A stretch of DNA of 64,000 nt, from the NCBI GenBank assembly GCA_964016985.1, contig OZ024827.1, positions 14,774,374 through 14,838,373 on the forward strand, read 5' to 3'. The translations under genes and the position numbers were made by a program. A model generated the notes under the pieces. The model had not been told where the DNA came from, searched no databases, and saw only the letters and a program-made list of their open reading frames with translations. Each line of letters starts with the position of its first letter. Position 1 is the first letter of the stretch. The DNA comes from Anodontia alba (taxonomy: Eukaryota; Mollusca; Bivalvia; Lucinida; Lucinidae). Below are positions 24,753-57,592 of this stretch, piece after piece.

Positions 24753-24997
24753 TTAACCCTTAAAGCGCCAATCACAACTATTGTCGTCTGCTTTGTCTTC
24801 TGCTGGTTACTTTAAAAGTCACTTCTGCAAACAGTGTGGACCCAGATCAGACTGCTCCTTTAGGAGTAGTCTGATCTGGGTCCACACTGTTTGCCTGTAT
24901 GCAAAAATAGGTTTGAAAAGTTTGCAAGAATATTCAGCAGACGACATGAACAGACGACATTTTCAGATGCAGTTTTTCTTGGCGCTTTAAGGGTTAA
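24753..24997. repeat. TTAA-E chimeric element E2, intact
   Basis: TTAA at 24753 and 24994. CCCTTAAAGCGCCAATCACA left, GGCGCTTTAAGGG right, so the ends are C type. The centre AAACAGTGTGGACCCAGATC and its mirror are D/H type. CAGCAGACGACAT and AACAGACGACATT occur as a direct pair in the right flank. Confidence 0.92.
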
Positions 24998-25183
24998 CAT
25001 TTACCATGCTATGGGCAAATTCAGCAGATGACGAAATGATGTTATTTTTCTTAATTTCTCAGAAAATAGTCTTTAACATTTCAGAAGACAATTTGCAAGA
25101 AATGTCAACCTATTTTCTGGGAAAATAAGAAAAAAATTTTAAATTTGTCATCTGCTGAATTTGCCCATAGACTGGTAAAAGTG
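24994..25183. repeat. TTAA-B element B12 abutting E2
   Basis: Shares TTAA with E2. CATTTACCATGCTATGGGC left; inner apex deleted at ACATTTCAGAAGACAATTTG. Confidence 0.78.
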
Positions 25184-25319
25184 AACACCATACGATTCAT
25201 GATAATATATTCCAAACATGCTCTTTGATGCAGTTGCAAATGATAGTAATATGATAATTACTGTGTGCTGGGATGGTATTAATCATAATCATAATTTTGC
25301 TTTTGAAGCATTTCATTTA

Positions 25320-25662
25320 CCATATTATATCTAATTACCACACCATGCCCTTAGGTTTTTCAAAGTTACTGGGAAAACTTGTGGTAAAATATGTATCCAC
25401 CTATACTAAGGGTACACTTAAAAAAAAAAAATCAGCTAGGGACTTATCTAAAGATGCTAATGCATTGTTTCTGTGAGTTTCTTTTCCTCTGATTTTCTTT
25501 ATAAAAGCATATGTTGTGGGTACTCGTTTGAATTGCATCAACTAGTTGATGCAATTCAAATGGGTACTCATAACATATACTTTTTATAAAGAAGTAGATA
25601 AAAACTGCACTGGCTGTAATCTGAAGATTACAGGTTATGTGCAGTGATTAGGTTGAGTACGG
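25320..25662 (+). repeat. Family N element N1
   Basis: CCATATTATATCTAATTACC left is an eroded N terminus. Hairpin GAATTGCATCAACTAGTTGATG; right GTGATTAGGTTGAGTACGG. Confidence 0.7.
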
Positions 25663-25675
25663 TGAATTGTTTAAG

Positions 25676-25915
25676 GGCAGTGGATAAACTTTCATGGGCA
25701 GTAACTCTGTCAAAACTATTTTTGCCTCTCTACTGAAAAGGGTACTGCTCTAAAAAGAAAGAATTTGCTACCATTGGGAGCAATTTTTTTCCTTTTAGAG
25801 TAAACCATGAAACTTTCAGAAGGTGACTGGTGGGTATGAAAGCAAACAAGAAGTCACAAAAGTTATCTCCCTTGTAAAATATATTTTTTTACGGTGGAAA
25901 TTCTACCAAGTGTAT
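25676..25915. repeat. Family O element, near full length
   Basis: GGCAGTAACTCTGTCAAAAC, stem AAAGAATTTGCTACCATTGG/GAGCAATTTTTTTCC, then GTCACAAAAGTTATCTCCC and CTACCAAGTGTATTCA. Confidence 0.75.
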
Positions 25916-25923
25916 TCAGTTGC

Positions 25924-25995
25924 ATGAAAAACATAAAAGCCACGAAAAACATAATAGCCATGAAAAACTTAAAACCCATGAAAAACTTATCAGCT
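25924..25995 (+). repeat. Short tandem, CATGAAAAACATAAAAGC unit
   Basis: Four degenerate copies of 18-19 bp. Confidence 0.75.
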
Positions 25996-26152
25996 TAGTT
26001 TGTTGCAGACGACAGTTAATAGATGAATGCAGATGACAATTAGTAGATGACAGTGGATTTATATTATATCAGATTCTCTCTTTCTTAAAAGTATATTGTG
26101 TGGCAAAAAAAAAAAAATGATATTTTGCCTTTATTTTTCCAAGAAAACATGT

Positions 26153-26368
26153 AATGTCCTAAAATTTCATACACCAAAGTGTTTCTGACAAAATGGCATA
26201 CACAAAAGGTGCAGACCCAGAGATCAGACTGCTCCTTCAGAAGCAGTCTGATCAGGTCTACATTGTTTGCCATTCTACTATGTATTTCAAGAAACACTTG
26301 TATAAAAAAAGTAAATTTCAGGCCAGAAAGGTATGGAATAAAGTGTTCAAAATTTTAGGATATTTACC
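26153..26368. repeat. Family H element H1
   Basis: AATGTCCTAAAATTTCATAC left, CAAAATTTTAGGATATTTACC right. AAAGGTGCAGACCCAGAGATC core with GCTCCTTCAGAAGC tip. Confidence 0.78.
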
Positions 26369-26539
26369 AAACCCGTTATAGGAGACATTTATAATCGATA
26401 CCACAGCAGGTCTATTTCATGAAGAAATAGGTGCATTTTTTTTAAAATAGGGCTCCATGCTACTGTCATGGGTTAAATGTCTCAGTATTTTTTAACATAA
26501 AATTTGAAATGTAACCAGCAGTATTTGGTAATATTCAAA

Positions 26540-26715
26540 CCCAGACTCTTTCTGGATGACAAATAGGTGACATTTTTCTTATTTTTCCCAGAAAATAGTG
26601 CTTGACTTTTCATGGAGACTGTTTGCTTACAGTCTTTCCCTATTTTCTAGTATAAATATGAAAATATTTCAAAATGTTGTCCGCTGTTATCTGTATTCAG
26701 TATGCAAAGCGTTAA
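26540..26715. repeat. TTAA-B element B13, eroded left end
   Basis: CCCAGACTCTTTCTGG left remnant; right CAGTATGCAAAGCGTTAA. The right TTAA is shared with B14. Confidence 0.65.
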
Positions 26716-26921
26716 CCCTTAGCATGCTAGATAAAATTTTAGCAGCTTATGTCTTTATGTTTTTCTTATATTTTCCAGAAAACAGGATTTGACATTTCAT
26801 GCAAATTGTCTTCTGCGAAGACATTTTGCATGAAATGTCAACCCTGTTTTCAAGGAAAATTAAGAAAAAAATATGATAAAGCTGCTATCTGCTGAATTAA
26901 CCCAGAGAGTGCAAGGGGTAA
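26712..26921. repeat. TTAA-B element B14
   Basis: TTAACCCTTAGCATGCTAG left. The stem is near perfect with tip CTTCTGCGAAG; right end GAGAGTGCAAGGGG. Confidence 0.82.
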
Positions 26922-27042
26922 TTGAATTTGGATTTATCCTGTTTGTTCTGCACTAATGTATAACTATTCTGTCATATTTTTAAGAAATCTTAAAGGAAAA
27001 TTGCAGTGTGCACAGAATATTAAATGGGCCAGATCAAATAAA

Positions 27043-27232
27043 AAGATGTCTTCCAGCATATGCGAAATGGACATGTTGAGATCATCCCGCACATCTGCGG
27101 TCACATCAGAGCCTTCCCTGTTCCTCGACATATTATGTACTGTCTGTTGATTCTGTAAGCAGGCAGGGAAGACTATGCAGATGTGTGGGAAGATCTGGGC
27201 CATCCCTATAGGCATACATCTGAAGATATGTT
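27043..27232. repeat. Family K/I composite
   Basis: CATATGCGAAATGGACATG, CCCGCACATCTGCGGTC inner hairpin, then GGCATACATCTGAAGATATG. Confidence 0.45.
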
Positions 27233-27730
27233 TTTCACTTGAGTTGGCCCATATAAGGTGACAGACTAAATCAACTAAAATATTTTGGCTTCTTTTAAAA
27301 ATGAAAATATTGCGTTTGCTGAGAGCTTTGATACCATAAATTGCAGAATTATTTTTAGGAAAAAAGCAAGGTCCTTGATTATTTGATCTAGAGGGTTAGA
27401 GATAAACAAAACATCTGTAGAGTAGTCTCAGTGAGATTGTACTAATAAGGTACTAGCATATAATTTATAGAGAATTGAAGCTAATGTAGTCTTTTATCTT
27501 ATTGCCATAGTAACAGTTTAGCTGATACCCTGGATCTCTTGTGGTTTAGAACCTTCAGCCTTCTGTAGGCAAATTAAGCAGGTGAAAATGACAAATAAGT
27601 TATAAGTTAACATTTTTTTTTGCAGACAGTATGGCATGACATGTTTGGAGAGCATTTGAATGATGTCTCAAACTTCAGTTTTCTGGGGAAAATAACTAAA
27701 ACATATTTTTTTATTGTTTTATGCTGATAT

Positions 27731-27935
27731 TTAACCTTCTATTCACTCTAAATGAAATTAGTAGATGTCAAAGAGTGCTTGTTTATTTTTTCTAGAAAAT
27801 AATACTTGACATTTCAGGAAACAATTTCCTAAGGAGACAATTTGAATGACATGTCAGCTCCTATTTTCAAAGAAAAAGAAAAAAAAACAACAGAAAACTG
27901 TATTAAAATTTCACCTGCTCCTATCAGCATTTAAG
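27731..27935. repeat. TTAA-B element, strongly diverged
   Basis: TTAACCTTCTATTCACTC left; ACAATTTCCTAAGGAGACAA apex. A second diverged relative lies at 27560-27720. Confidence 0.5.
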
Positions 27936-27939
27936 TTTT

Positions 27940-30900
27940 GTAGTCAGCATATTGAAGGTTGGCATTATTGTGTGCTGCAGATTGAGTGCACCATTATTGG
28001 CTGTCTACTGCACAATTATTGAAAATTCTGCAGCTGTCTCCCTTGTTCTGAGCTCTCTTTTAAAGAAGGAGAAAATAGTGCATTTTTCTGCCAATTTCAA
28101 ATGTTACATAACTTTTCCTGGTTAAAATCAAACACTGTCATAAAAGTCTATAGAGTGTCTTTTTCAATCCCTGCAAGGAAAAAAAAGGCATTCCTTTGCC
28201 ATTCTAAGATTTCTTTCATACAACTTTTGTGCACACATGGGTGACCTTGACTGACCTTGCTTCTCATTTGAAAAGGGAAAGTACAAAGAGAATTTCACTG
28301 TTAAGATGGCAAAGAGGTTGTCCAAGACCATATTGGCATATTGACACATACTGACACAAAGGTCTTGATGTCTCAATAGAAACTAATTTGATTAGCTTTC
28401 TTACAAGTCATGCAAACATAATTACCAGTTAAATAATAAAAATACTTCAAGTCACAGCTTCTTTTGCTTTTTTGTTTTTTTTTTATACCAGCAGACTGTG
28501 AAGATGTAATAGTTTAACAATGCCTCACAGTACATTGGGATGACTGGATTCTGGATAACATTTTATTTTGCATAGATGACAAAAAGTCGAAATAAATGAA
28601 CAGACTTCACTGTCACAAAAGAATGTGAAGACTTCCAATTCGAAATTCAAAGTAGGGGTTCGGTTAACTTAAAACATATGGGTAGGGAAGATGGGTTTTT
28701 TAACAAACAGAAAATGTGGGTTCCCTTGTTATCACTGGGGCCATTTTGACACATCAACACCAATATTTTAAGAAGAATATCCATTGTGGTCTCCTTGGCT
28801 TAACCATAACATATGTGTCTCCAGTTTCTCTACTGAAAGTGAAGAGAATTAAACCATAAAATTACTATGTTTGGTTACAGAAGTGTCAGAATTGTAAAAC
28901 TGCACCATCATTGATTGATATTAGTAAAATGCTGCATATCATAATGCATTTCATTTACAGTTGCAATGTTTCCATAAAATTTTAATGCAGTTGTTCTTCA
29001 CAGTCCCAGATAAACAATATATTCAAGTTTATACAGCTTTCTTGTTTCTCTTTGAAAACATATGTTTTGGGATCCCCTTGCAGTTGTCTCTGCAAGACAA
29101 CTGCAAGCAGATCCCAAAACATATGTTTTTGATAAGAAATAAGAAAATGTTAGTATTTCAGTGTTGTTATCTCCAAAATAGCAATTCATCTGGGCCCTTG
29201 ATACTTGTGTCTGTATGCACCTTCTGTCAGACAAATGTCTCCTTGCTTTCTTGGCCATTTTTTCTGCAAGAATTGTATGCCTTTTGCACTTGAGACTTCC
29301 CATAACACTTCTTACTGAGGTTTTATGTGATCAGATGACTGATGATTCAGTTTGAAATCATTCTTATTTTCCTCTGCAATACATTAATTTATGATGTAGC
29401 TTGATTATGGCATTAAGAAACAGATGGAGGAGTTTTTTGCAAACTTTCTTCATGGACTAATGTAAGTGTGCTTCTTGTGAACAACATTAGAAACGCTTTA
29501 GCTCTTACGTTAAACTGCAGATGTACTGATTATTTCTACTTTAAGGCCATATGTTGCTTTTAAAACTTTGTCTGGGTACATTAGGTATCTCTTGATGTAA
29601 TCAGTCTTTGATTGGCATGACATGTAATGGCAGTGTGCAGCGACGAGTTGCCGTTACTGTACCTGGCACCGTTGACCCTGACTAGGACTCAGCTGTTTTT
29701 TGGTGCTTTTATAATGAGTCCAAGACAATGAAACAAACACCAGTCTGTCTGCAGATTGAGACTCTTTGCATATGATGCTTGTTTTTACTACTTAATGTCT
29801 CTTAGAATTGCAGTCAGCTGCTCTGAGCATGTAGCAACAACAGAAGTTTCATAAAATCTGCAAACCATAAGAGGAAAATTAAACATTTTTTACCAAGCAG
29901 TGGAAACAAAAAGACAAAGAAAATCAATATGAAATGCAGGATATCCTATGCTCAGCTGCCTGCAATCTCAAATGGGTTTTATTTGCTTGTGTTTTGTAAT
30001 AAGCCAAAGAGAAAGAGGCAACCACAAACATATGCATGGAGCCTGCCATAGCTAGGATCCAAGAGCTGATTAAAGCAATTAGGCACCAGGTCTTGCTGCA
30101 CTGTTAGCAAACACCTGATCATACTTCACAGTTTACAGCTCTGTGCAGTTGTTTTTTGCATTAAAAATGTATGGTGTATGTTCTTGCAGCAGAATCCATC
30201 TGCCTCTTGTGGTTTTGACATCACATCTCCACATACTTTATGTTGCCAAGTTTTCAGAGATATCAAGAAACACTCTTATTAAAAGAATTACTCATCATTA
30301 AGTCAAAAAGCTGCTGTTAAAAGCCCTTAATTTTGATTCTAAGGCTGATGGTTAAAGCCCTGTTGACTAGAAAAAGAATACACATGACTTGTGTCCCTTT
30401 GCAGTTGGCTCCAGTAGGCTCTTTGTAGAACAGGCAGCCATATTGGATTTTGACTTAGCCATTGGAAAACTGATATGATAACTGAATACTTCAATAAAGT
30501 TTGTGATGCTGTCCACTTAAACACTTAGGGCATTTAATTCAAGAGTAAATAAAAGCTAAAATGATAAGTAAAAGTATTATTATCAGAAAATCTACAATTA
30601 ATAAAACATTTTTGTCACAATGTGAAGAATCTATATTTGAAAATACTGAAAAATCAAGAACTGTTTTCAGAATCTATTTATATTTGTTTTCCATTTTTTA
30701 GCTTTTGGCTTGCTGTTTTATTGCTGAAATATTACCTTTAATTGTAATGTCAGTTTTACAGTTTTGAAAAAAGAGTGTGTCCAAGGCATGCCCCTTTGTG
30801 ATTATTGAATTATGTGATTTAAATGAAGTATTTTTAAACACCTGAGCCCTACTGGAAACAATGTTTTGCAATATGAAAGGCAAGGTGTTGATGGCTGTAT

Positions 30901-31110
30901 TTGCTGTTACTAAATTACACATTAAAAACACCACTCTGATAAGTTACTGTATCAGTATCACCAGCAGAATAAATTTTCATGTTTTTGTCTATTTAGGTGG
31001 AATATACATTAGAAAAGTTACATATTACTAAAATGTATCAAAGTTTCTTTACATAATTCCAGATAAGGCACATTTTAGTAAAAAGTATCAATATTTTTCT
31101 TCTTCTCCTC
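27940..31110. other. Element-poor interval of intron 4
   Basis: Only one M hairpin (29037-29158) was recognised in about 3.2 kb, while the rest of the window averages several elements per kb. No coding similarity, tRNA or conserved RNA fold was identified by eye. Confidence 0.6.
29037..29158. repeat. Family M palindrome
   Basis: GAAAACATATGTTTTGGGAT is mirrored by ATCCCAAAACATATG around TTGTCTCTGCAAGACAA. Confidence 0.75.
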
Positions 31111-31115
31111 GACAT

Positions 31116-32001: not shown

Positions 32002-32215
32002 TTAACCCTTGTCCTGCTGAACCAGGATGTACCCTGCCTTTGCAAACAGTGTAGATCCAGATCATTTGGCTTCTTCAGAAGCCAACTGATCTGAATCTGC
32101 ACTGTTTGACATTAAGTATGTGAATTTATTGCAACAGTCTGGATCAAGTAATCTGATTGGCTGTAAATTGGAAGTAGGTCTGGCATCTTAATTTATTCAG
32201 CAGGACAAGGGTTAA
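32002..32215 (+). repeat. TTAA-D element D4
   Basis: TTAA at 32002 and 32212; CCCTTGTCCTGCTGAACC left and CAGGACAAGGG right, all intact. Confidence 0.9.
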
Positions 32216-32235: not shown

Positions 32236-32431
32236 GTCACCCCTGAGTTTCTGAAGTAGGCTCTTCTGTCTTTGATTTTGGACATATCAGTTGCTGCACA
32301 CGGGGGTTGGTGGGGGTGGTGGTGTGCGTGGGGGTGTCATTGAAAAATCCAGAATCAAATGGCAAACAGTGTAGATCCTGATGAGATGGCTTGTTATGAG
32401 CTGTCTCATCTAGATCTACACTGTTGGCAAA
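32236..32431. repeat. Family L element L1 with G-rich insert
   Basis: CTGAGTTTCTGAAGTAGG left part and AACAGTGTAGATCCTGATGA core with GGCTTGTTATGAGCTG tip. A G-rich stretch at 32302-32334 has three G5 tracts and several GG. Confidence 0.6.
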
Positions 32432-33778: not shown

Positions 33779-33991
33779 TTAACCCTTCTCTTGCTGAACA
33801 CGACACGCCCTGTCTTAGCAAACAGTGTAGATCCAGATCAGTTGGCTTCTGAAGAAGCCAATTGATCTGGATCTGCACTGTTTGCCAATTAGTATGTGAA
33901 TGTCTATTAGGCATATGGATCAAGTGATTTGAATGGCTGAAAATTAGAAGTGGGCATGGCATCTTAATTTATTCAGCATGACAATGGTTAA
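33779..33991 (+). repeat. TTAA-D element D5
   Basis: TTAA at 33779 and 33988. Tip GGCTTCTGAAGAAGCC; single mismatches in the termini. Confidence 0.88.
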
Positions 33992-35400: not shown

Positions 35401-35600
35401 TTTACCCTTAAAGTGACAAGCAGAATTGCAGCAGATAACAGCCTAATTTTTTTATATTATTTTTCAGAGAAGATAAGGCTTGATGTGAATCATCTGCTAG
35501 ACAAATGATCTACATGAAATGTCAAACCTTATTTTCTCTTCCCAGCAATAGTGTTTTGTTTTTAGAATGTTGTCTGCTGCAACTGTGATTATTGCTTTAA
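35401..35600. repeat. TTAA-C element sharing its TTAA with G1
   Basis: ACCCTTAAAGTGACAAGCAG left; ATTATTGCTTTAA right with TTAA at 35597. Confidence 0.75.
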
Positions 35601-35824
35601 CCCATTGTAGACTGAATAGAATCTCCCACACTATATATTGGAAGAGTCCAATTTCAATTTTAGGTACGTCCAGCTATGATTTTTACATATTCCTAAAGAA
35701 AAATGGTTAAACTATTTGCAAACAGTGGAGACCCTGATCAGATGCCACGTTCTGCAACATCTGATCTGGGTTTGCACTGTTTGCCAATTACCCTTGTATG
35801 GGTCTCCCAACTACAATGGGTTAA
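35597..35824 (-). repeat. TTAA-G element G1
   Basis: TTAACCCATTGTAGACTG left and ACTACAATGGGTTAA right. Core AACAGTGGAGACCCTGATCA with GCCACGTTCTGCAACATC tip. Confidence 0.85.
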
Positions 35825-36345: not shown

Positions 36346-36405
36346 GAATTTAATGTTTCCATGGAATATTCATGAAAAATATTCTGCCTGTTCTGAGCTG
36401 TATAT

Positions 36406-36612
36406 AGTAAATGTCCTAATATTTTGAACACTTTATTTTATACTTTTTGCCTAAATTTTATGCAGTTATTTCACAAAATACTTGCATGAATGGCAAACAG
36501 TGTAAACCCTTCTTCAGAAGACTTCTTCAGATGCAGTCTTATCTGGATCTGCACTGTTTGCTTAAGCCTTTTTATCAGAAAGTTGGTTTACAAAATTTTA
36601 AGATAATTACCA
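36406..36612. repeat. Family H element H2
   Basis: TAAATGTCCTAATATTTTGA left, AAAATTTTAAGATAATTACC right. Core is TGGCAAACAGTGTAAACCC; the left arm is damaged. Confidence 0.7.
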
Positions 36613-36860
36613 TAAATTTGTATGCAAAATATTTGCTAATAATGCCCTTCTGACAGAAAAAATGAAACCTCTATTACCCAGTTAACTTACTATTTATATA
36701 ACAATGTTTAAAAAAAAAAAGAAAATGAAATATAAAGACAAGACCCAAACAAACCATTAAGTATCATCTTATCCTCTTTTTTCAGTAAACTGGTATATAA
36801 TGCAGTTAAAAGAGTACCTATGTTATGTTGACTATTTCATTGGAATTTTTCTGTCATGCT

Positions 36861-37073
36861 TAACCCTTGTCCTGCTGAACCCAGATATACCCTGCCTTTG
36901 CAAACAGTGTAGATCCAGATCAGTTGGCTTCTGAAGAAGCCAACTGATCTGGATCTGCACTGTTTGCCATTAAGTATGTGAATTTATAGCAACAATCCAG
37001 ATCAAGTAATCTGATTGGCAGAAAATTAGAAGTGGGCATGGCATCTTAATTTATTCAGCAGGACAAGGGTTAA
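36861..37073 (+). repeat. TTAA-D element D6, reference copy
   Basis: TTAA at 36861 and 37070; ends CCCTTGTCCTGCTGAACC and CAGCAGGACAAGGG. Stem AAACAGTGTAGATCCAGATC is perfect, tip TTCTGAAGAA. Confidence 0.92.
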
Positions 37074-37377: not shown

Positions 37378-37795
37378 GGGAAACAACTATGTCAAAATGA
37401 TTGAGCCCACTTCAGAAAAGGGGTCTACTATTAAAAGAAGGGGAGCATTTTTTTTCTTTTTAGATCAGACCCTTTTCAGAAGGGAATGGATGTGCAGAAA
37501 AGCAAACAGGAGGTCAAAACAGTTGTCTCCCTTGTTAACCCTTGTCATGTTGAATAGATTAAGATGCCACACCCATTACCAATTTTCAGCCAATCAGATG
37601 ACTTGATCAAGGTTGTTGATACAAATTCACATTTTTACTTGCAAACAGTGCAGAACCAGATCAGTTGGCTTCTTCAGAAGCCAAAAGCCAACTGATCTGG
37701 ATCTGCACTGTTTGCAAAGGCAGGGTATATCCGGGTTCAATAGGACAAGGGTTAAAAATGTTGGCTAAACTACCAGTTGTATCCTGTCTCCTTAA
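37378..37795. repeat. Family O element interrupted by D7
   Basis: Left part to AGTTGTCTCCCTTG, right part AAATGTTGGCTAAACTACC then TTGTATCC. Joined, these match the O end seen at 63665-63705. Confidence 0.78.
37535..37755 (-). repeat. TTAA-D element D7 nested in O
   Basis: TTAA at 37535 and 37752. The tip has a small AAGCC duplication (AGAAGCCAAAAGCCAAC). Confidence 0.9.
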
Positions 37796-38735: not shown

Positions 38736-39009
38736 AATCAACATGTACAAATACTTAGACAAATATGGAATGCATAAATTTTGTCAGTCATTTTATGCTG
38801 CAGTAGCATCAGTGTGTAAATGATCTACAGTTTTTATTGTCTTATTTTTGTCTGTATCAGCTTTGATCTCAGTGGCAATATTTCATTTACCTGTTAGTTT
38901 GGAGATCTCTGTCAAGTACCTAATCAAGCAAAATGTTACCTTATGACATGCACAACCAGTATAAGCTCAGTCATGGCCTTACCAGAAGAATTCTGGTGGC
39001 TTTAATAAC

Positions 39010-39253
39010 TGAGCCACAATTTGAGAAAATGTACCATCTGACATGTCTACCCAAGGAAGACAAAAATTAGCCTGTGCATCCACTCAGTCTAATCAGTGTC
39101 TTCCGTGTCCTCATGAAACTTTGTGTCCTTGGCTATCCAAAATGCACAGAATGGAGATTCTAATCAGACTGGGCAAATGCTGAGGCTGATCTGAATCTTT
39201 GCTGGGTGCACATGTCTGAGGGTATGTTTTCTAATTTTGTTGTGGCTCAGCTG
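39010..39253. repeat. Family I element, full length, CpG-depleted
   Basis: GAGCCACAATTTGAGAAAAT left, TTTGTTGTGGCTCAG right, two hairpins with GGCTATCCAAAATGCAC spacer. Confidence 0.72.
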
Positions 39254-39540
39254 TTTTTAAACAGCAATACTTTTCACGTATGTAATAATCACTCACTCAC
39301 TAATAAGATTTCACTGAAAATTGACTAATGTGATTGGATGTAATTCAACAATTATTTTGTTGATTTGTCCAGTGCTCCCAGTTCAGTGAGTCAATTATGA
39401 TCATTGTCTATGCCCATGATCATTATCTACACCTGTGGACGTAGACAATCTTAATGTTTACCATTGCTCTTGAAGCACTTTATGGAAGGTATTGGACTGG
39501 TCCAATGCTATTTACCATGAACTGCTCAATGTTATTATAA

Positions 39541-42124: not shown

Positions 42125-42312
42125 TTAACTTTTAAAGTGTCAAGCAAAATTTGTAGCAGACAACATTCTATTTTTTTTTATTTCATGTGAATTGTCTGCT
42201 TGGCAGACAATTCACATGAAATATCAAGACTTATTTTCTATGAAAAAATAATAATAATAATAAAAAATATTTAAAAGTGTTGTCTGCTGCAGTTATGATT
42301 GGTGCTTTAAGA
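42125..42312. repeat. TTAA-C element
   Basis: TTAACTTTTAAAGTGTCAAG left. Perfect inner stem CATGTGAATTGTCTGC; right GGTGCTTTAAGAG. CpGs are replaced by TG/CA. Confidence 0.78.
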
Positions 42313-42533
42313 GATAATTTCGAACATAGAGAAACAAGAAACAAGTTCAGAGTCAAGGCACCTGATCATGGACACTGAGATAGAGCAAGGATTTAAATGA
42401 AATATTTTTTTTTTTTTTTCAAAAATTAGGGGTAGACAACAGAAAGAATAACCAACAATGGTACTTTTAATTGGAACTTTATTTTGACTGACCGGTTCTG
42501 TGTATCCAATACCTTTTTCAAGATTATTTTTAG

Positions 42534-43046: not shown

Positions 43047-43260
43047 TTAACCCTGGTTCTGCTGAACCTGGATATACCCTGCCTTTGCATACAGTGTAGT
43101 TCCAGATCAGTTGGCTTCTGAAGAAGCCAACTGATCTGGATCTGCACTGTTTGCCATTAAGTATTTGAATGTATATCAACAGTCTGGATCAAGTAATCTG
43201 GTTGGCTGAAAATTAGAAGTGGGCGTGGCATCTTAATTTATTCAGCATGACAAGGGTTAA
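43047..43260 (+). repeat. TTAA-D element D8
   Basis: TTAA at 43047 and 43257; CCCTGGTTCTGCTGAACC left. Confidence 0.9.
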
Positions 43261-43294: not shown

Positions 43295-43521
43295 TTAACC
43301 CATTTTAGTCTGGAAACACCAAAAAAGGGTAACTGGCAAACAGTTCAGACCAAGATCAGAAGCCACAGAGTGACCTCTGATCGGGGTCTACACAGCTTGC
43401 ATTAAGTACAGGAATTTGTATAAAACATAGTAATAATAAAAACTAACCAGGCACCCTGCTGTTGGAAATGGACCGATCCAAAGAGTTTTGGTAGAAGAAT
43501 CCACTCAATGTAAATGGGTAA
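43295..43521 (+). repeat. TTAA-G element G2
   Basis: TTAACCCATTTTAGTCTGG left; right target mutated (AAATGGGTAAAG). Core CTGGCAAACAGTTCAGACC. Confidence 0.75.
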
Positions 43522-43543
43522 AGACACCCAGATATTTAGGATG

Positions 43544-43652: not shown

Positions 43653-44361
43653 TTTTGGCAACGAAAGCAAAGCTTATTCTGAAATCTTTGTAAAACTAGA
43701 ATACAAAAACTGAAAGGAGGCTTTTGAGCCATATAATGTGAAAAATCTGCTTTACCTTGTATGGCCTGTTCTTATGTCCCTTCACTCTCATAACTCTGTT
43801 CACCTTTTTATTTGGATAATGTGAAAAGAAATCTTTCTTAAATTTATTTCACATTAAGATTAATAGAAAATAACTAACATTACATCTGAAGATGGAGAAA
43901 ACCAATTTAACTGTCAATTTTATGCATAAAAACAATAAAGTGTCTCAAATGCTAAATATTAAGTGGGTACCTTAAATGAATCACTAACTACTGACAAGCA
44001 TGTGATTTAATGTATTTAGAACAGTTATAGTCTGAACAAAATGCTCATCATGTAAAATATGCACATAATGTACCTGGTTGCTTATGATAGTCAAGGAAAT
44101 TTGTCCTAAACACCCCATTCATTTTTAGGAGGTTGTAGAAATTAAAGATGTGATTTTTATTTTCTTTAGTTTTGAGATCCTCATAGGCATTTAGTCAAAT
44201 GTTAAAAAAAAATATTCAGAAAATCATTCTGGCAACAAAAGATTGAAAGCAGAATTGCTCAACCTTAGGTGAATGGAGTTATGGGTTTCCAGGCTACTAG
44301 GTGGTAAAACCAAGTTTGTTTCATCCTTACAGCATCATTTAAAATTATAGAAGACAATTTT

Positions 44362-44605
44362 GAGCCACAATATCAGAAAATGTAGCTTGGGACATGTACG
44401 CTCAACGAAGACTCAAATTAGCCTGTTCATCTGCAGTCTGATCATAATCTTCATTGTCTGCAAGAAGAAATTTTGCATCCTTGACTATCCTCAGTGTGCA
44501 GAGTGATGATTTTGATCAAACTGTATGAATGCGCAGGCTGATCTGAATCTTCGATGAGCACAAATGTCTGAAGGTACATTTGCTGACATAGCCGCTCATT
44601 TTATT
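44362..44605. repeat. Family I element
   Basis: GAGCCACAATATCAGAAAAT left, GCTGACATAGCCGCTCA right, middle CATCCTTGACTATCCTC. Confidence 0.7.
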
Positions 44606-44611
44606 ATTTCA

Positions 44612-44886
44612 TTACGAAAACACGTCTAATCAAATATATTGAAAATTTTACAACCAAGAAAGGAAAATTTTCAGATAAAAAATTCTGATATTTTTCATAT
44701 TTCTGCTGAAAACATAGATTGTAGGTACTTGTTAGAACCACCTCAGCAAGGCAGTTCTAATGTGTACCCACAATGTATGCTTTTTAGCAAAATAAGAAAA
44801 ATAATGTTTACCCATGTAAACCCCAGTTTTACTATATAAAAGTGGGGTTTAAGGGAGTCACCATTTTATAGGTGTGTTTTCGTGAT
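44612..44886 (-). repeat. Family A element, copy A8
   Basis: CATTACGAAAACACGTCTAA left, GGTGTGTTTTCGTGATG right, tip CACCTCAGCAAGGCAG with no CpG. Confidence 0.83.
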
Positions 44887-46938: not shown

Positions 46939-47085
46939 GGTTACCACTCTCTGGGCTAATTTAGCAGATGACAAATTGGTGATATTTTTTTCTTATTCTT
47001 TTTTTTTGCAGACAACAAGATTTGACATTTCATGCAAATTGGAGACAATTTGCATGAAATGTCAAATCCTGTCTTCTGGAAACAA
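46939..47085. repeat. TTAA-B element, right end lost
   Basis: GGTTACCACTCTCTGGGC left; stem perfect through CATGCAAATTGGAGACAATT; stops at CTTCTGGAAACAAAG. Confidence 0.72.
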
Positions 47086-47121
47086 AGGCGTTTGCCAGAC
47101 AATCACAATACGATATAAGAT

Positions 47122-47584: not shown

Positions 47585-47861
47585 TCACGAAAACATGCCT
47601 ATATAATATTGACCCCCTTAAACCCCACTTTTATACAGTAAAACTGGGGTTTACAGGGGCATACATTATTTTTCTTATTTCTTCTCAAAAACATAGATTG
47701 TGGGTACTCATTAGAACTGCCTCACTGAGGCAGTTCTAATGAGTATCCACAATCTATGTTTTGAGCAGAAATAAGAAAAATATCGGAGTTTTTAATCTGA
47801 AAATTTTCAGTTTTTGGAGGTGAAATTTTCATTGTATTTGAATAGGCATGTTTTCGTAATG
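47585..47861 (+). repeat. Family A element, copy A9, zero tip CpG
   Basis: CATCACGAAAACATGCC to GGCATGTTTTCGTAATG. Tip CTGCCTCACTGAGGCAG is perfectly symmetric after loss of all six CpGs. Confidence 0.88.
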
Positions 47862-48167: not shown

Positions 48168-48529
48168 TAATTTCAACCTAATTACTACATATACCCTTGT
48201 AAGTGCCGAGTCAAGCAATTTCATAGTCTTCAGATTACAGACTGTGTATATTTTTACTACTTCTTTATAAAAGTATATGTTGTAGGTACTCATTTGAATT
48301 TCCTCAGCAAGTCCAGGAAATTCAAATGAGTATTAACAACATATGCTTTTATAAAGAAAAACAGATAAAATAATATTGCATAGACACAATTAAATGCACC
48401 CTTCATGAAGTCCTCTGCTGAGCTTTCTTTAAAGTGTGCCCTTATAAGGTGGATATTTTACTACAAGCTTTTCAAGTTGTTTTGTTAAAAGCTTAGCACA
48501 CAGTGTGATAATTAGGTTAAATAGAGTAT
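48168..48529 (-). repeat. Family N element N2
   Basis: CAACCTAATTACTACATATA left, GTGATAATTAGGTTAAATA right. Hairpin GGTACTCATTTGAATTTCCT mirrored. Confidence 0.7.
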
Positions 48530-49347: not shown

Positions 49348-49353
49348 GAGTAA

Positions 49354-50310
49354 GCATTCTACATAAATCTATAGCGGGCAGTTATCGGTCCGTCAGGATA
49401 GCTGATGGGCCGATAACAGCCCGCTGTAGATTTATAAAGAATGCTAGCTGGGTACCTTGTGTTTATTATATACCCAGTAAACATTCTACATAAATCTATA
49501 GCGGGCAGTTATCAGCCTGTCAGGGTAGCTGACGGGCCGATAACAGCCCGCTGTAGATTTATAAAGAATGCTAGCTGGGTACCTTGTGTTTATTATATAC
49601 CCAGTAAACATTCTACATAAATCTATAGCAGGCAGTTATAGGCCCATCAGGGTAGCTGATGGGCCAATAACAGCCCACTGTAGATTTATAAAGAATGCTA
49701 GCTGGGTACCTTGTGTTTATTATATACCCAGTAAACATTCTACATAAATCTATAGTGGGCAGTTATCGGCCCGTCAGGGTAGCTGATGGGCCGATAACAG
49801 CCTGCTGTAGATTTATAAAGAATGCTAGCTGGGTACCTTGCGTTTATTATATACCTAGTAAACATTCTACATAAATCTATAGTGGGCAGTTATAGGCCCG
49901 TCAGAGTAGCTGACGGGCCGATAACAGCCTGCTGTAGATTTATAAAGAATGCTAGCTGGCTACCTTGTGTTTATTATATATCCAGTAAACATTCTACTTA
50001 CACCACAACCTCTTTATAACACTATTGTTGAGGTCCATTGCATAAACCGTGTTTGTTAAACAACCGTGTTATATCCAAACAAAAATGTATTGATTATATT
50101 GAAAAATGACCATTTATGGTCATTTTTCAATATAATCTATACATTTTTGGGATCCATCTTTGAACTGTGTTATATCCAAAACCGTGTTATAACGAACCGT
50201 GTTATAAAGAGGTTGACGTGTAAATCTATAGTGGGTAGTTATCGGCCCATCAGGGAAGCGAACGGGCCGATAACAGCCTGCTGTAGATTTATGAAGAATG
50301 CTAGCTGGGC
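49354..50310. repeat. Tandem array of six family J hairpins, 127-bp period
   Basis: Unit starts (CATTCTAC motif) at 49354, 49481, 49608, 49735, 49862 and 49989: exactly 127 bp each. Each unit is a hairpin of about 100 bp plus the spacer CCTTGTGTTTATTATATACC. Units differ by scattered substitutions, largely C to T and G to A. Unit 6 is split by the element at 50001-50220. Solo J copies exist at 11393 and 12905. Confidence 0.93.
50001..50220. mobile_element. TA-flanked Tigger-like MITE inserted in J unit 6
   Basis: TA at 49999-50000 and 50221-50222. Ends CACCACAACCTCTTTATAAC and GTTATAAAGAGGTTGACGTG pair over 22 bp with two mismatches. Internal GTGTTATATCC/AACCGTGTTATA repeats and a central ATGACCATTTATGGTCAT hairpin. 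Removing it with one TA restores the neighbouring J unit sequence. Confidence 0.88.
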
Positions 50311-51605: not shown

Positions 51606-51607
51606 AT

Positions 51608-51819
51608 CCCTTAGCATGCTGGGTAAACATTTCAGCAGACAACATTTTGAAATATATTTCTTTTTTTTCTTTTTTTTTTCAGAAAACAGGCTTTGGCAAT
51701 TCATGCACTTGTCTCTTAGGAGACACTCTGCATAGCATATCAAAGCCTGTTTTCTTAGAAAATAAGAAAAATGAAAATAAGAAAAAAGTATTATCAATTT
51801 ATCATCTGCAAGTGGTTAA
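51608..51819. repeat. TTAA-B element
   Basis: CCTTAGCATGCTGGGTAAAC left; right TTAA at 51816; arms with AGAAAAATGAAAATAAG slippage. Confidence 0.78.
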
Positions 51820-51901
51820 GGTAAAAAAAAAACTGTAATATTGTGTAGGTATCAGATTTCTATAGGTGGATTACAAGTTATTAATTTACAATCAAGTTGT
51901 T

Positions 51902-52112
51902 TTAATGCTTTGCATGCTGGGTAAAAAATTCAGCAGATGACATTTTGAAATATAATTTTTCTAATTATTCCTAGAGAATAGAGTTTAAATGTTCACATAT
52001 ATTGCCTCATAAGGAGACAATTTGAATGATTTGTCAAATCCTATTTTGTGGGAAAAATAAGAACATATCAATTTGCAGTCTGCTGAATCAGCCAAGAGAG
52101 TCTCAAGGTTAA
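51902..52112. repeat. TTAA-B element
   Basis: TTAA at 51902 and 52109. Left TGCTTTGCATGCTGGG, tip CTCATAAGGAG. Confidence 0.82.
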
Positions 52113-52329
52113 GATAACAAATTAAGAAAATGAAAAATGAATTACTAAAAAAGACCTTTTACAGGTGAACAATGAAGGCCTCGGTCAGCTGATATTTTTC
52201 TAATAGTAGGCTGTGGGCAATCAAACCACTGATGGAGAATGAACAACCCTGATGAGACTGCATCTGATCTGGGCATTCACAGTTTACATATGCACCAAGA
52301 TAATCAGTTATTTTTTATTATTTCTGAAC

Positions 52330-52577
52330 ACTTACATACTGGGTAAATTCAAGAGATGACAATATGTTTTCTTATCTTTCCAGAAAATAGGTTTTATAGT
52401 TCATGCAAATTGTCTCCTAAGTTTTTGGTCTTGTCTGCTTCTCTGGTTGTTTGTTTTCTATCAGACTGAATTCTTATTATCCTAAGGAGACAATTTACAT
52501 GAAATGTAAAACCCTGTTTTCTGGAAAAATCAATCTGTCATCTGCTGAATTTGCCAATAGAGTGCTATGGGCTAAGC
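52330..52577. repeat. TTAA-B element with 59-bp insert in the tip (B23)
   Basis: Left arm to TTGTCTCCTAA at 52420, right arm from CCTAAGGAGACAATTTAC at 52481. Between them lies a near-identical copy of 52642-52700. Confidence 0.85.
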
Positions 52578-52704
52578 AGGATATGATTGATCATCAGGGG
52601 CGTGGAATGATTATGTTATGATATGCCTTGCAACCTGTTCAGTTTTTGGCCTCGTCTGCTTCTCTGGTTGTTTGTTTTCTATCAGACGGAATTCTTATTA
52701 ACCC

Positions 52705-52921
52705 TTAACCCTTGCCAAGCTGAATAAATTAAGATGCCATGCCTTTTCTAATTTTCAGCCAATCAGAATACTTGATTCAGATTGTTGATACAAATTTAAT
52801 AATATACTGAATGACAAACAGTGCAGATCCAGATCAGTTGGCTTCTGAAGAAGCCATCTGATCTGGATCTACACTGTTTGCAAAGGCAGGGCATATCTGG
52901 ATTCAGCAGGACTAGGGTTAA
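52705..52921 (-). repeat. TTAA-D element D9
   Basis: TTAA at 52705 and 52918; CCCTTGCCAAGCTGAATAAA left. Preceded by an extra TTAACCC at 52698. Confidence 0.87.
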
Positions 52922-53088
52922 AGTGGTCACAACTGCAACAGATGACATTCTGATTTTTTTATTATTTTTCAGAGAACATAGGTCTTGATATTTCATATGA
53001 ACTGGCTGCACGAAATGTCAAACTTTATACCCTGCTTCCAAAAACAGAATGTTGTCTGCTGCAGTTGGATTGGTACTTAAAGGGTTAC
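52918..53088. repeat. TTAA-C element sharing its TTAA with D9
   Basis: TTAAAGTGGTCACAACTGCA left, GTACTTAAAGGGTTAC right. Confidence 0.72.
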
Positions 53089-53281
53089 AGGTTAAGGTTT
53101 TAAAAAGTATTGAAAATATAGAAACGGTCACAAGCTGAAACATGCCTTATGAACAGTCACAGCATACTCATATGAACTATTGTCAATCTTGATTGGACTG
53201 GGTAACTGCAGTCTGTTCAGGGTTTCAAAGGTTACCCAGAATTTGCAATGCTAACAGCTTAATCCCATATCTTATAATAGA

Positions 53282-53345
53282 GTGGGACTGCAAAGACTCT
53301 AAGCAGACTGTATCAATGCACAGGCTGATCTGGGTCTAAGTGCGT
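53282..53345. repeat. Family K hairpin
   Basis: GACTGCAAAGACTCTAAGCA then GCACAGGCTGATCTGGGTC. Confidence 0.45.
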
Positions 53346-53402
53346 ATACTTTTGCTTGATGCAGCCAGATTTTGAAAAGATGTTTCAAGTTTCTGCATGT
53401 TC

Positions 53403-53966
53403 ACCATGAGCTGTGCTGGTGGCTAGGTAACATGGAATGTGGCTTTAGTTCAAGCCTCCAATGACCAGGATGTGTGCTGATGGCTGGGTAACATAGAATG
53501 TGGCTTGAGTTCAAGCCCCCAGTGATCAGGATCTATGCAGGTTGCTTGGTAACATGGAGTATGGCTTGAGTTCAAGCCCCCAGTGACCAGGATCTATGCA
53601 GCTTGCTGGGTAACATGGAGTATGGATTGAGTTCAAGCCCCCACTGACCAGAACCTATGCTGGTTACTGGGTAACATGGAGTGTGGCTAAAATTTAAGCT
53701 GCCACTGACCAGGATCTATGCTGGTTGCTGGGTAACATGGAGTATGGATTGAGTTTAAGCCCCCATTGACCGGGACCTGTGTGAGTTGCTGAGTAACATG
53801 GAATGTGGTTTGAATTCAAGCTGCCACTTACCAGAATCTATGTTTCTTACTTGGTAACATAGAGTATGGCTTGAGTTCAAGCCTCCTATGACCAGGATCA
53901 ATGCTGGTTGCTGGGTAACAGTATATCTAGAGACCAAGCCTCACACTGACCAAGATCTATGCTGTA
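53403..53966 (+). repeat. Minisatellite, 61-bp period, nine units
   Basis: TAACATGG-type anchors at 53428, 53489, 53550, 53611, 53672, 53733, 53794, 53855 and 53916 are each exactly 61 bp apart. The consensus contains GCTGGGTAACATGGAGTATG, TTGAGTTCAAGCCCCC and TGACCAGGATCTATGC. Substitutions but no indels between units. Confidence 0.95.
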
Positions 53967-54135
53967 GTTCAATTATTATGTGCAATGTAAGAGTGAGAGA
54001 AAGAGGGAGACTGATATCAGACAAGTATTATTTTGTTGTGTTTTTAAGATTTAATAAAGTATAATTTTGTTATTATTTGTTTCTTTTTCATTGTATATTT
54101 GCTTGAATTGAGAGTGATATAGAAAATGATAGCAT

Positions 54136-54225
54136 GTTACCATATTTACCCTAAGTATTCTTAACATCTAAGCAAACAGTGTAGAACCAAATCAAACTGC
54201 TTCTGATCAAGGTCTGACCTTTATG
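54136..54225. repeat. Family F left half
   Basis: TACCATATTTACCCTAAGTA then AAACAGTGTAGAACCAAATC. Confidence 0.5.
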
Positions 54226-54291
54226 CCACCCGAGATCTCTCTGCACTATGAAGTTAAGTAGACTGAATACACTTGATAGATTTTCAGTCAC

Positions 54292-54472
54292 CTTTTATAA
54301 GACGGAAATCTTTTGGGACTTCCTATTTGCTTTCTTGGACACCTTGGTCCATCTGAAAAGAGGTCTATTCAAAAACTGAAAGGTTTGGAGCAAATTCTTG
54401 TCCTTTTCAGAAGACAGGGGAAAAAGATTTAAGACAGAGTTGCATCTCCTGAAAGTATATCCATTCCCTTTA
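54292..54472. repeat. Family O element
   Basis: TGAAAAGAGGTCTATTC and TTGCATCTCCTGAAAGTATATCC; hairpin eroded. Confidence 0.55.
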
Positions 54473-54698
54473 ACCCATTGTAGTCTGGTGACCCCTAAAA
54501 GGGTGATTGGCAAACAGTGCAGACCCAGATCAGATGCCACAGAATGCTGCATCTGATCGGGGTCTCCACTGTTTGGAAATAATTCAACCATTTTTTCTCT
54601 AGGAATATCTAAATCACATAGCATGTCATACCTAAAAGCCAAATTAGACTCTTCCAATATATAATGTGGGGGAGTTCATTCAGTTTACAATGGGTTAA
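54471..54698 (+). repeat. TTAA-G element G3, reference copy
   Basis: TTAA at 54471 and 54695; CCCATTGTAGTCTGGTGACC left, CAGTTTACAATGGG right; GCAAACAGTGCAGACCCAGA core with GCCACAGAATGCTGCATC tip. Confidence 0.88.
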
Positions 54699-54943
54699 AT
54701 AGAGTTGCTCAGATCATAGGATTAAAAGGTTAAAGAGTTACACAGTCTGAATATTTAGGGTAATTATATCTTTGAAAAAATGTGTGTCTTAATGCTGCTG
54801 CATATGATAAAAAGATGTCAAACTGTGATCATTTTCTATGATCATTTTCTTATTTTTTCTCTGAAGTTGGACTTGGTATTCTATGGGAAAATCCAGTGAA
54901 TTGGCAAATCCTATCTTCAGTGGAAAGTAAGAAGACCCAGTGT

Positions 54944-55158
54944 AATCCATTTTAGTCTGGAGACCCCGCTAAAGGATCTTTGGCTAATATTGCAGATGCA
55001 GATCAGATGCCATAGAATTTAGCATCTGATCAGGGTCTCAGGATCAGGGTCTCCACAGTTCGCAAATAATTTAGTCATATTTCTCTGGGGATATCTAAAT
55101 CACATAGCCTAACTTACCTAAAATTGAAAGGATTTGACACTTCCAATATATTCTCACA
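54944..55158 (+). repeat. TTAA-G element G4, eroded
   Basis: GTAATCCATTTTAGTCTGG left. Includes a local duplication of ATCAGGGTCTC near 55035. Confidence 0.65.
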
Positions 55159-55159
55159 G

Positions 55160-55860
55160 ACAGCAGAAAGTCATTGCTACTGAATTGAACATTTCTTAGC
55201 AGAAAAATATCTGCATTTGAAACCATCTTTTCGTGGGCTCCATTACAGTTTATCTTTGTTTGTAACATACAGCTGGTATCAGACAGTCCCATCAACAATA
55301 TTCAGTCCATTTGGGATGATGGCAATGTTATACAAAGGAATGTAGGTTTCAAGAGTGTTCAGCATTTCTAACTTGTATTTTATGTAACTGTATATAGTGA
55401 CTATATAGTCTTTGTGAAGAATTCTATCCTGATATAAATTGAATTCAAAATTGCATCTTCATGACTTGGAGGTGATATTCCACTAATCTACACAGAAATA
55501 GATCTACAAAAAAAAGAAGTGGTGAAATAAAACTATACATTAGCCTATCACTTCATCAGATGTTTCCAGCCAGATAGAGTAACTTTTCAGAAGTTTTAAT
55601 CAAGGTCTCGAGAACAATCAGCAAATAAATCTCTCCAAGAGAATTCTTGTTAGGAAGAGTTTATAGCCCGCCAAATCAAGAAGATGAGGAGAAACCAAAC
55701 GAACTGGTGAGTCAGTAATAATTATTTACCAATATAAAGAAGTTAGTTTGCTTGAATTTGAATATATATAGGGTTTTTATACCTTATAAACTGCATATTT
55801 TATATTGAATAAACAATATTCTTTCATTTGCAGATGAAGTTTTCTATTAAATAAATATTA
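55160..55860. other. No recognisable feature
   Basis: AT-rich DNA with no clear element. A short open frame here has no recognised family. Confidence 0.4.
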
Positions 55861-55863
55861 TCA

Positions 55864-55946
55864 CAGAAACAAAGACCCCCATCAACCTCCACTGCTATGC
55901 AGTCTGGACAGACTGTGCAGGCTGGTTAGTATGGTCTCTGTTCAAG
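55864..55946. repeat. Family K hairpin
   Basis: ACAAAGACCCCCATCAACCT and GACTGTGCAGGCTGGTTAG. Confidence 0.4.
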
Positions 55947-55975
55947 TGGACCTTTTTTGGTTGATTCACAATGCA

Positions 55976-56174
55976 GTAAATGTCCTAAAATTTTGTACAC
56001 CAAAGTTTCTCACAAAATCGCCTATGCAAACAGTGCGAACTTCAGGAGCAGTCTGATCAGGGTCTACAATGTTTGCCGTTCAAATGAGTATTTTAAGAAC
56101 TAACTGCATAAAAAGCAAAACTTTGGCCAAAAAGTATGGAATATAAAGTGTTTGAAATTTTAGGACATTTACAG
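55976..56174. repeat. Family H element H3, left arm shortened
   Basis: TAAATGTCCTAAAATTTTGT left, AAATTTTAGGACATTTACA right. Confidence 0.75.
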
Positions 56175-56276
56175 TATGCTTCAAATAAGTAGACCAGGTT
56201 GTAAAGTCATAAGTGACAAATCTGCAGAATTGAAAGAAAACTGTAGCACAAAGTAAGAAAATGTTCTTTCTGACAT

Positions 56277-56348
56277 GCATTCAGCAGATCAGTCTGCACC
56301 TCCATGTATGGAGTAGGAGACTGATCTGTGCCTTCAATGAACACAGAT
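56277..56348. repeat. Family K hairpin
   Basis: CAGATCAGTCTGCACCTCC mirrored by GGAGACTGATCTGTGCC. Confidence 0.5.
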
Positions 56349-56600
56349 GCTGCAGCTCAACTGGTTAAGGCAAAGTCTTCCTTCATGAGACTGAACAAGC
56401 AAACCTCAAGTGTACCAAACTGACAGTCAGATTAGCATGCACATTTTTTGTACTTGTGCTTCAAAACTTCAAAACAGGGGCAGATCCAGAGGGTTCAGTG
56501 GACCCAACCCCCCAACCCCATCTTATCCACCCCTCCCTGGATTCAAAATTTCATTTTCATGGAAATACTCGGAAAATTTGGATAAGATTTGATAAATTTT

Positions 56601-56767
56601 ATATGCCATGTTTACCCTAAATATTCATAGACCTTACGCTTTATATCATACTTCTAAAATTTCGACAAATAATGTAGACGCTGATCAGATGCCTAATTTG
56701 CAACATCTGATCTGAGTCTACAGAGTTTGCTCAGGCCTGTGTGTCTGAATACTTAGGGAAAAATGTA
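56601..56767. repeat. Family F element
   Basis: CCATGTTTACCCTAAATATT left; CTGAATACTTAGGG right; tip CCTAATTTGCAACATC. Confidence 0.65.
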
Positions 56768-56884
56768 ATTTTATCAAATTAAATCCCCTGACAAAAATTT
56801 TGAAACCCCTGTTAAATAATCTTGGATCTTCCCTGAAACAATTGCCTAATATAGCAAACTGCACAGACATTGAGTGGATTAAGG

Positions 56885-57090
56885 TGAATGTCCCTAAAAT
56901 TTCAAACAAAGTGTCTGACAAAATGACATATGCAAACAGTGCAGACCCAGATCAGACTGCTCCTGAAGGAGCAGTCTGATCAGGGTCTACACTGTTTGCC
57001 ATTCCACTAAGTATTTTAAGAAACAGCTGCATAAAAAGCAAAATTTAGGCCAAAATAGTATTGAATAAAATGTTTGAAATTTAAAGACAT
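56885..57090. repeat. Family H element H4, reference copy
   Basis: GAATGTCCCTAAAATTTCAA left. AAACAGTGCAGACCCAGATC stem is perfect to the tip CTCCTGAAGGAG; right AAAGACATTTACC. Confidence 0.82.
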
Positions 57091-57342
57091 TTACCATACA
57101 TGAATTTGCAGGCTAATCTGAGTTTATGCCATTTTCATAATTCAGCTGTAAGACCAGAAAATGTACCTTATATTTTGTTCTAAGTGAAAACTCAGATCAT
57201 CTTCTCTTGCTGTGTCTTGTATGTGATAAGGTATCTATTTGCTTGTTTTCATTCATTTATGTTTGTCTGCATGCGCGCAGTTGAGATATTGTTTTGCTTA
57301 TTAGCTTACTGGTTTTTGGGTTTTGTAACAAGTTCAGATGTA

Positions 57343-57592
57343 CCGTATTTACCCTAATTATTGGGACACCTAAACTCCTTACCATACTTGTCCAAATATT
57401 TGAAAAGTCTATTTTACTACCTGTTGATGTGTCTAAAACAGTGCAGGATGGGTGGCAAACAGTGTAGACCCTGATCAGATGCAGCATTCTATGGTGTCTC
57501 AGACAACACAGAATGCTGCATCTGATCTGGGTCTACATTGTCTGTGCAGACCTGTCTGTCCCAATGTTTAGGGTTATTATGGTACCCTGTAA
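57343..57592. repeat. Family F element, reference copy, TA-flanked
   Basis: TA at 57341 and 57593. CCGTATTTACCCTAATTATT left and mirrored GGGTTATTATGG right; tip expanded by TGGTGTCTCAGACAAC. Confidence 0.8.

Follow-up and report, generated by a model that had tools for sequence, protein, structure and literature searches.

The composite mariner-type miniature inverted-repeat transposable element (MITE) MER6/MER6A carries, in the part of PMC6887750 that deals with it, a conserved domain shared with a short interspersed element (SINE), and Made1, a palindromic MITE, is presented in the relevant portion of PMC1784062 as the source of the hsa-mir-548 microRNA (miRNA) family. For the bivalve satellite phBglII400, 13 of 16 breakpoints were reported to be associated with a 12 bp palindrome, and the same study of pearl-family MITEs, in the parts of PMC5139131 that bear on this point, did not regard palindromes as a necessary determinant of junctions. 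Here, a stretch of 64,000 nucleotides from the bivalve Anodontia alba (contig OZ024827.1, positions 14,774,374 to 14,838,373; the window) was analyzed, in which a hairpin, named C1, lies inside several families of short elements (D, E, F, G and H) with differing ends. The explanation favored here, with slightly better than even confidence, is that C1 is the fold-selected core of short non-coding MITE-like DNA transposons, mostly inherited with them and occasionally re-joined to other ends.

C1 resembles MER6/MER6A in being a conserved internal domain of elements with unrelated ends and mobility, and differs in that the V domain of MER6, as described there, is SINE-derived and conserved in sequence, whereas C1 is a compensating hairpin spread across several DNA-transposon-like families (PMC6887750, in part). 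Like C1, Made1 is a small DNA element with a near-perfect, RNA-foldable palindrome, although by the account in that portion of PMC1784062 its hairpin is formed by the terminal repeats, while C1 is internal and has ends from different families. The pearl-family elements share with the C1 elements a modular, non-autonomous structure and palindromes near junctions, but their modules are given as tandem satellite-like repeats (PMC5139131, in part). Subterminal hairpins of mobile elements are also known from IS200/IS605, where TnpA reads secondary structure; in the passages of PMC6006769 concerned, that system is prokaryotic, with hairpins at the ends and a known enzyme, in contrast to C1. General background on molluscs is given in PMC12479628 and PMC10294476. 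No description of the C1 hairpin was found in the open-access literature (subscription papers and Repbase lying outside this scope) by searches for its motif, as DNA or peptide, or for modular or chimeric MITEs with common interiors, the last of which led to a paper on a Drosophila inversion. Viral contigs gave no match to the two-arm pattern; two matches in a contig collection came from G+C-rich bacterial metagenome-assembled genome records without the full hairpin and were taken as chance.

The C1 arm AAACAGTGYRGAYCC was found 61 times in the window with up to two mismatches, the expectation from 100 dinucleotide shuffles being 0.70 (maximum 4). A loose two-arm scan returned 43 arm pairs, not all genuine: 52165-52287, 55010-55063 and 47691-47759 were false or duplicate by eye, the last being another hairpin type, and part of the pairs corresponded to a related variant, GCGCCCAGYGAAGAYTC.... 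A mechanical scan detected 51 strong hairpins in the window and none in one shuffled copy; 22 of the 51 were assigned to C1 on the basis of their motif, wrongly in at least two cases (47688-47762 and 48261-48358, of another type). C1 is a discrete stem-loop unit of about 32 pairs, measuring 66-68 nt in most full copies and 54-91 nt where the apex is deleted or enlarged. Its arms, GCAAACAGTGYRGAYCCWGATCAG, are followed by an apical stem specific to the family: TTGGCTTC in D, ACTGCTCC in E and H, and an ATGC type in G and F. A tandem array of 61 bp units, each resembling one C1-like arm, occupies 53403-53964.

All six reference copies named in the sequence-only reading contained the arm that it described together with its reverse complement, with somewhat different edges on re-measurement: 36900-36967 (D6), 54510-54576 (G3), 56932-56999 (H4) and 32362-32428 (L1). 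The E copy (E2) is real and spans 24827-24894, its start having been placed eight bases too late, and the F copy (F6, 57455-57545) is 91 nt long owing to a longer apex. Comparison of 25 copies from five families showed how sharply the common block ends. On the short side of the elements, mean cross-family identity was 0.27-0.31 in the flank, 0.22 in the last two bases outside the hairpin and 0.74 in its first eight bases; the corresponding values for the long side were 0.34-0.37, 0.52 and 0.81. The block common to the families stops where the palindrome stops, to within two bases on the long side.

The TTAA flanks reported for D, E and G were seen on either side of seven, two and two elements, respectively, in which C1 lies between matching inverted repeats, and further decayed copies exist (Table 1). 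These three families have the features of MITEs, namely a length of about 197-245 bp, inverted repeats, TTAA at both ends and several copies, and H also has inverted repeats (best in 55976-56172). L does not qualify, since no convincing ends were found around its hairpin, and its listing as an element family was not upheld. MITEs of the piggyBac type are defined by a TTAA target site and ends beginning CCY; TTAA followed by CCC was present at both ends of the listed D, E and G elements, some ends being decayed. As had been proposed, F is flanked by TA, read by eye at both ends of 57340-57583, a single complete copy, which would give F a target site of the Tc1/mariner type. The idea that two transposase classes are involved rests on these differing target sites, no transposase gene having been detected among the ten open reading frames (ORFs) of the window scanned with Pfam.

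Pairing was kept while the letters changed. The alignment used for covariation held 21 chosen hairpins (20 distinct), with C1 and the related GCGCCCAG type pooled, most D copies and the hairpins with a deleted or enlarged apex being omitted. In it, 82.2% of the cells pair, against 72.5% after shuffling; cells with a double change numbered 80 versus 38.6±5.0; and the covariation score reached 0.352 versus 0.188±0.015, with at most 0.114 for slid partners. None of these three values was attained in 500 shuffles. One stem position (columns 20-53) was unpaired in 17 of the 20 distinct hairpins. At this position G, H and F carry A on the short arm and T or C on the long arm wherever it can be read (H36493 is unreadable, and F56665 is T by eye where the script gave A); D, and those E hairpins for which the script gave a score, have A on both arms, so that the pair closes.

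Furthermore, in 11 D copies, none of the 20 arm changes at paired sites was mirrored on the other arm; on the short-to-long strand, eight of them result in G-U, and the other 12 leave the site unpaired. Since changes are not mirrored, the arms are not repaired after insertion, and pairing is maintained where new copies arise. In the same copies, divergence from the majority was 3.8% in the hairpin and 8.8% in the flanks (Fisher p 1.2e-5), and in E it was 1.1% versus 5.3% (p 0.016). Maintenance of the fold is well supported by the covariation and by the lack of mirrored changes.

The transfer of C1 to other ends is supported for the E family. Its ends, TTAACCCTTAAAGCGCCAATCACAACT (about 27-30 bp, T1), enclose C1 in three elements and a second core, C2 (TTTCATGTGAATCGTCTG type), in four others. 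One more T1 pair outside E (7690-7883) lacks the C2 motif, so that C2 is present in four of five other T1 pairs; the C1 arm is present in none of these five, the best match being 12-15 of 24 positions compared with 24 in E. Over the first 30 bp, the T1 ends of the four C2 elements are matched by five of the six E ends no less closely than they match each other, whereas control ends from D and G fall off after 10 bp; the sixth E end (13250) has lost its outermost bases. The E hairpin is 91% identical to the H hairpin at 56932, and the flanks of the two gave z scores of 0.6 and 0.8 in matched orientation and 2.3 and 2.2 when crossed. These results support module exchange in E, with T1 ends joined to C1 or to C2, and hence at least one transfer to other ends.

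C2 (ACATTTCATGYRAATYGTCT type), noted at 1456-1526, 15211-15347, 19541-19585, 26789-26841, 42179-42223 and 47001-47086, likewise has surroundings of more than one kind, and its two variants appear compensated by eye.

The short and long sides measure 39-40 and 105-109 bp in D, 40 and 121-122 bp in G (long side 87 bp in a decayed copy), 41 and 122 bp in the hybrid element 43295-43522, 45-49 and 94-99 bp in H, 65-74 and 103-104 bp in E, and 38 and 113 bp in the complete F copy (34-45 and 49-76 bp in decayed ones). Taking one value per family (40, 40, 47 and 38), the short sides of D, G, H and F fall within 9 bp of each other, with a post hoc P of 0.006 under uniform placement, or 0.023 for any four of the five families. 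These four families have one common layout.

Sequence kinship was assessed by anchored flank alignments (300 shuffles each, 15 family pairs in four comparisons, outer nine bases dropped, nine D copies). G and the hybrid scored z 9.2 on their short sides, D and H z 4.7 on their long sides, and H and F z 3.3 and 3.6; all remaining same-orientation values were at most 2.5. Wrong-orientation controls reached z 4.0 (hybrid and F), with others at 2.9 and 2.7, and because of this, values of 3 to 5 are no more than suggestive. In local alignments, G and the hybrid gave z 13.9-15.1 on their short sides, and one G copy reached z 5.8 with the hybrid on the long side, whereas the 4.5-5.7 of the D and G short sides dropped to 1.6 once the outer bases were removed. 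G and the hybrid thus appear to form one lineage, and F and H are perhaps related. The claim that the families do not resemble one another outside the core accordingly holds for E, fails for G and the hybrid, and may fail for F with H and D with H. Core and termini alignable throughout, which had been named as the sign of divergence from a single ancestor, were seen in G with the hybrid and not in E.

Predicted peptides in databases read through these elements on other contigs as well. The G reading accounted for 362 of 367 candidates (E<=1), the D reading for 213 of 215 (E<=1), and the hairpin-peptide query for 1184 of 1186 (E<=10). Among the 120 matches listed for each search, from which all details were taken, four families were recognized around the same hairpin: D, F, G and an additional one, N. 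From the first 239 peptides, a crude script recovered 217 readings of the hairpin; in these, Val or Ile stood at one hairpin residue in 75 of 75 peptides with an N-type left side, and Val in three of 110 with a G-type left side, two of the three being N by eye, in a sample biased by a hairpin query that itself carried Val. The D hairpin motif was matched by a regular expression in 109 of the 120 listed D peptides. Judged from these readings, hairpin variants are family-specific, other contigs included.

Two peptides, P0136 and P0173, have by eye an N-like left side and a G-like right side, and the hybrid element is built in the same way. Its long side was matched by 29 of 51 left flanks of the hairpin-peptide search (best match 67% over 36 aa, E 1.2e-10) and by none of 25 from the G search, while the long sides of G elements were matched by two of the 51 and by 20 of the 25. 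The hybrid may have arisen by recombination, or it may stand between families that are related. Its hairpin (43336-43400) was also considered as a junction of G to D, which was dropped because the long side is N-like.

Taken together, selection on folding is better supported than transfer, and the two alternatives offered by the sequence-only reading, a hairpin mobile between elements or one selected for a function, are compatible. Its second alternative gained from the covariation and the unmirrored changes, and re-joining was borne out for E. In the favored explanation, C1 would have been inherited by most families as part of the whole element, by G together with the hybrid and N, and perhaps by F together with H. 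At least once, in E, illegitimate recombination among copies in the same genome would have joined the palindrome to unrelated ends, palindromes being weak points for such events. Least certain of all is the reason why the fold is kept: a core able to fold in single-stranded DNA, while the element is replicated or excised, would let its lineage make more copies, possibly by fork stalling or easier template switching, and the same folding property would account for the core swaps. Explanations of MITEs usually consider only the ends; a conserved, replaceable core would make the interior matter for their success, and C1 would give a direct handle on why some MITEs reach very high numbers.

Several points weigh against this explanation. 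Two of the five covariation measures were unexceptional, double-change pairs being equaled in 40 of 500 shuffles and further pair types in 72 of 500, and relatedness among the hairpins remains in the shuffles. Hairpin and flanks did not differ significantly in H (9.4% versus 11.1%) or G (9.5% versus 10.3%), clear exchange was seen in one family only, and the layout probabilities were computed once the data had been seen. Moreover, the role of C1 at the DNA level is one that we infer.

The same selection could act on RNA, with MITE transcripts yielding a hairpin of pre-miRNA size that is processed, edited or bound. The 66-68 nt length, the roughly 32 pairs and the compensatory changes are in keeping with this, and Made1 offers a precedent for an miRNA origin from MITEs (PMC1784062, in the portion cited). 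On the short-to-long strand of the D, E, H and G hairpins, C>T exceeded G>A by 21 to 5, which leaves G-U pairs, the flanks giving 40 to 28; as proof of selection on RNA this asymmetry was discarded, the numbers being small and the bias noticed afterwards. No Rfam family was matched in the window at gathering score, and sub-threshold miRNA matches in 54400-57650 were not believed. DNA is favored as the folding molecule because an RNA hairpin would bring the element no evident benefit, nor is there a clear reason for it to be selected for one, and because palindromes in DNA would also explain the joins. An RNA role is considered doubtful.

Simple divergence from one hairpin-bearing ancestor, in which the ends drifted, the hairpin was constrained and no modules were exchanged, draws on the common short-side layout, on the z scores joining G with the hybrid, D with H and H with F, and on the mismatch polarity common to G, H and F. 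It is set back by the E ends, held in common with C2 elements over about 30 bp, and by E flanks that never exceeded z 2.5 against other C1 families in matched orientation; it also needs a conversion between TTAA and TA ends, and the control value of 4.0 weakens the z scores of 3 to 5. As an account of all C1 families, mere divergence was dropped because of E, and the explanation is regarded as unlikely.

A bolder proposal, quite improbable at present, is that C1 is a structure-recognized replication or amplification signal, marked by the recurrent internal mismatch, which transposon families can acquire. If true, MITEs would consist of two exchangeable parts, ends for different transposases and a core for a factor that the families share and that might copy single-stranded DNA, with C2 as a second such core.

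Selection might also be dispensed with if the arms were kept complementary by template-switch correction during replication, a process known for quasi-palindromes. Apical deletions and duplications are present (63024-63078, 59621-59675 and 37641-37715), but the absence of mirrored changes in D and the retention, in 17 of 20 distinct hairpins, of a mismatch that correction would erase leave this account only a small chance.

Free hopping of C1 is not supported, because the long sides of D, G, H and F in the window lie near a hairpin, variants track the family and D, G, H and F have a common layout. No long side was found away from the hairpin in the window, all matches lying within 75 bp of it (16 of 16 in D, 3 of 3 and 3 of 3 in G, 4 of 4 and 7 of 7 in H, and 4 of 4 in F). 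Seven of 19 D short-side matches lay farther away and are the elements' own opposite ends. Clean empty sites in sister copies, the mark of a self-mobile unit, were not seen, the 64 kb containing no D, G, H or F long side free of the hairpin. A hairpin that inserts into MITEs by itself is very unlikely: the sharp palindrome edges and the E and H hairpins with their unalignable matched flanks would suit it, and the lack of empty sites, the family-bound variants and the lack of any constant duplication noticed at the listed hairpin edges weigh against it.

Table 1. Elements and hairpins located in the window (positions are those of the window).
Feature	Position	Strand	Description
D reference element	36860..37073	+	flanked by TTAA; sides of 40 bp (short) and 106 bp (long) around C1 36900-36967
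D copy	21241..21452	-	hairpin 21346-21413
D copy	23371..23584	+	hairpin 23411-23478
D copy	32002..32215	+	hairpin 32042-32109
D copy	33779..33991	+	hairpin 33818-33885
D copy	37535..37755	-	hairpin 37641-37715, apex enlarged
D copy	43047..43260	+	hairpin 43087-43154
D copy	52705..52921	-	hairpin 52814-52881
D copy	62984..63180	+	hairpin 63024-63078, apex deleted
D copy	63308..63521	-	hairpin 63414-63481
E element	24753..24997	+	T1 ends, C1 24827-24894
E element	59547..59778	+	T1 ends, C1 59621-59675, apex deleted
E element	13250..13490	+	C1 13323-13386, outermost left end decayed
C2 element	15158..15388		T1 ends as in E, C2 core, no C1
C2 element	19457..19665		T1-like ends, C2 core
C2 element	42125..42317		T1-like ends, C2 core
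C2 element	58163..58366		T1-like ends, C2 core
G element	54470..54698	+	flanked by TTAA; hairpin 54510-54576; 122 bp on the long side
G element	35597..35824	-	TTAA ends, hairpin 35718-35784
G copy, decayed	54943..55150	+	hairpin 54983-55063
Hybrid element	43295..43522	+	hairpin 43336-43400 between a short side of G type and a long side of N type
H element	56887..57095	+	hairpin 56932-56999
H element	55976..56172	+	best inverted repeats of H, hairpin partly deleted
H copy	26153..26369	+	hairpin 26202-26270
H copy	36399..36606	-	hairpin 36493-36561
F element	57340..57583	-	TA-flanked, hairpin 57455-57545
L1 hairpin	32362..32428		C1 variant with GATGAG; element ends looked for, none convincing

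The window has a G+C content of 33-41% in 4 kb steps, no tRNA was found in it, and its longest ORF does not exceed 154 aa. Among the ten ORFs scanned, the sole Pfam match above cut-off was CBF-beta (core binding factor beta; PF02312, E 1.2e-9) in the ORF at 3774-4058 (+), the one sign of a host gene, which marks the host as an animal; a match to ISK_Channel below cut-off was ignored. Two adjacent ORFs at 61658-62506 (-), without a Pfam match, presumably represent the end of a non-LTR (long terminal repeat) retrotransposon, which they resemble.

Additionally, other palindromic repeats were observed. A family with TGAGCC-type ends (11867-12102, 38980-39265 and 44335-44635) carries two GCGCCCAG-type hairpins, whose internal mismatches have opposite polarity. 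Hairpins of a third type, TTGTGGGTACTCRTTWGAA, were found within longer palindromic repeats at 408-522, 25503-25584, 47691-47759, 59879-59964 and 60539-60636. Finally, 49349-49997 is a tandem array of 127 bp units, each mostly one long palindrome, and single relatives of this unit are located at 11390-11506 and 12905-13015.

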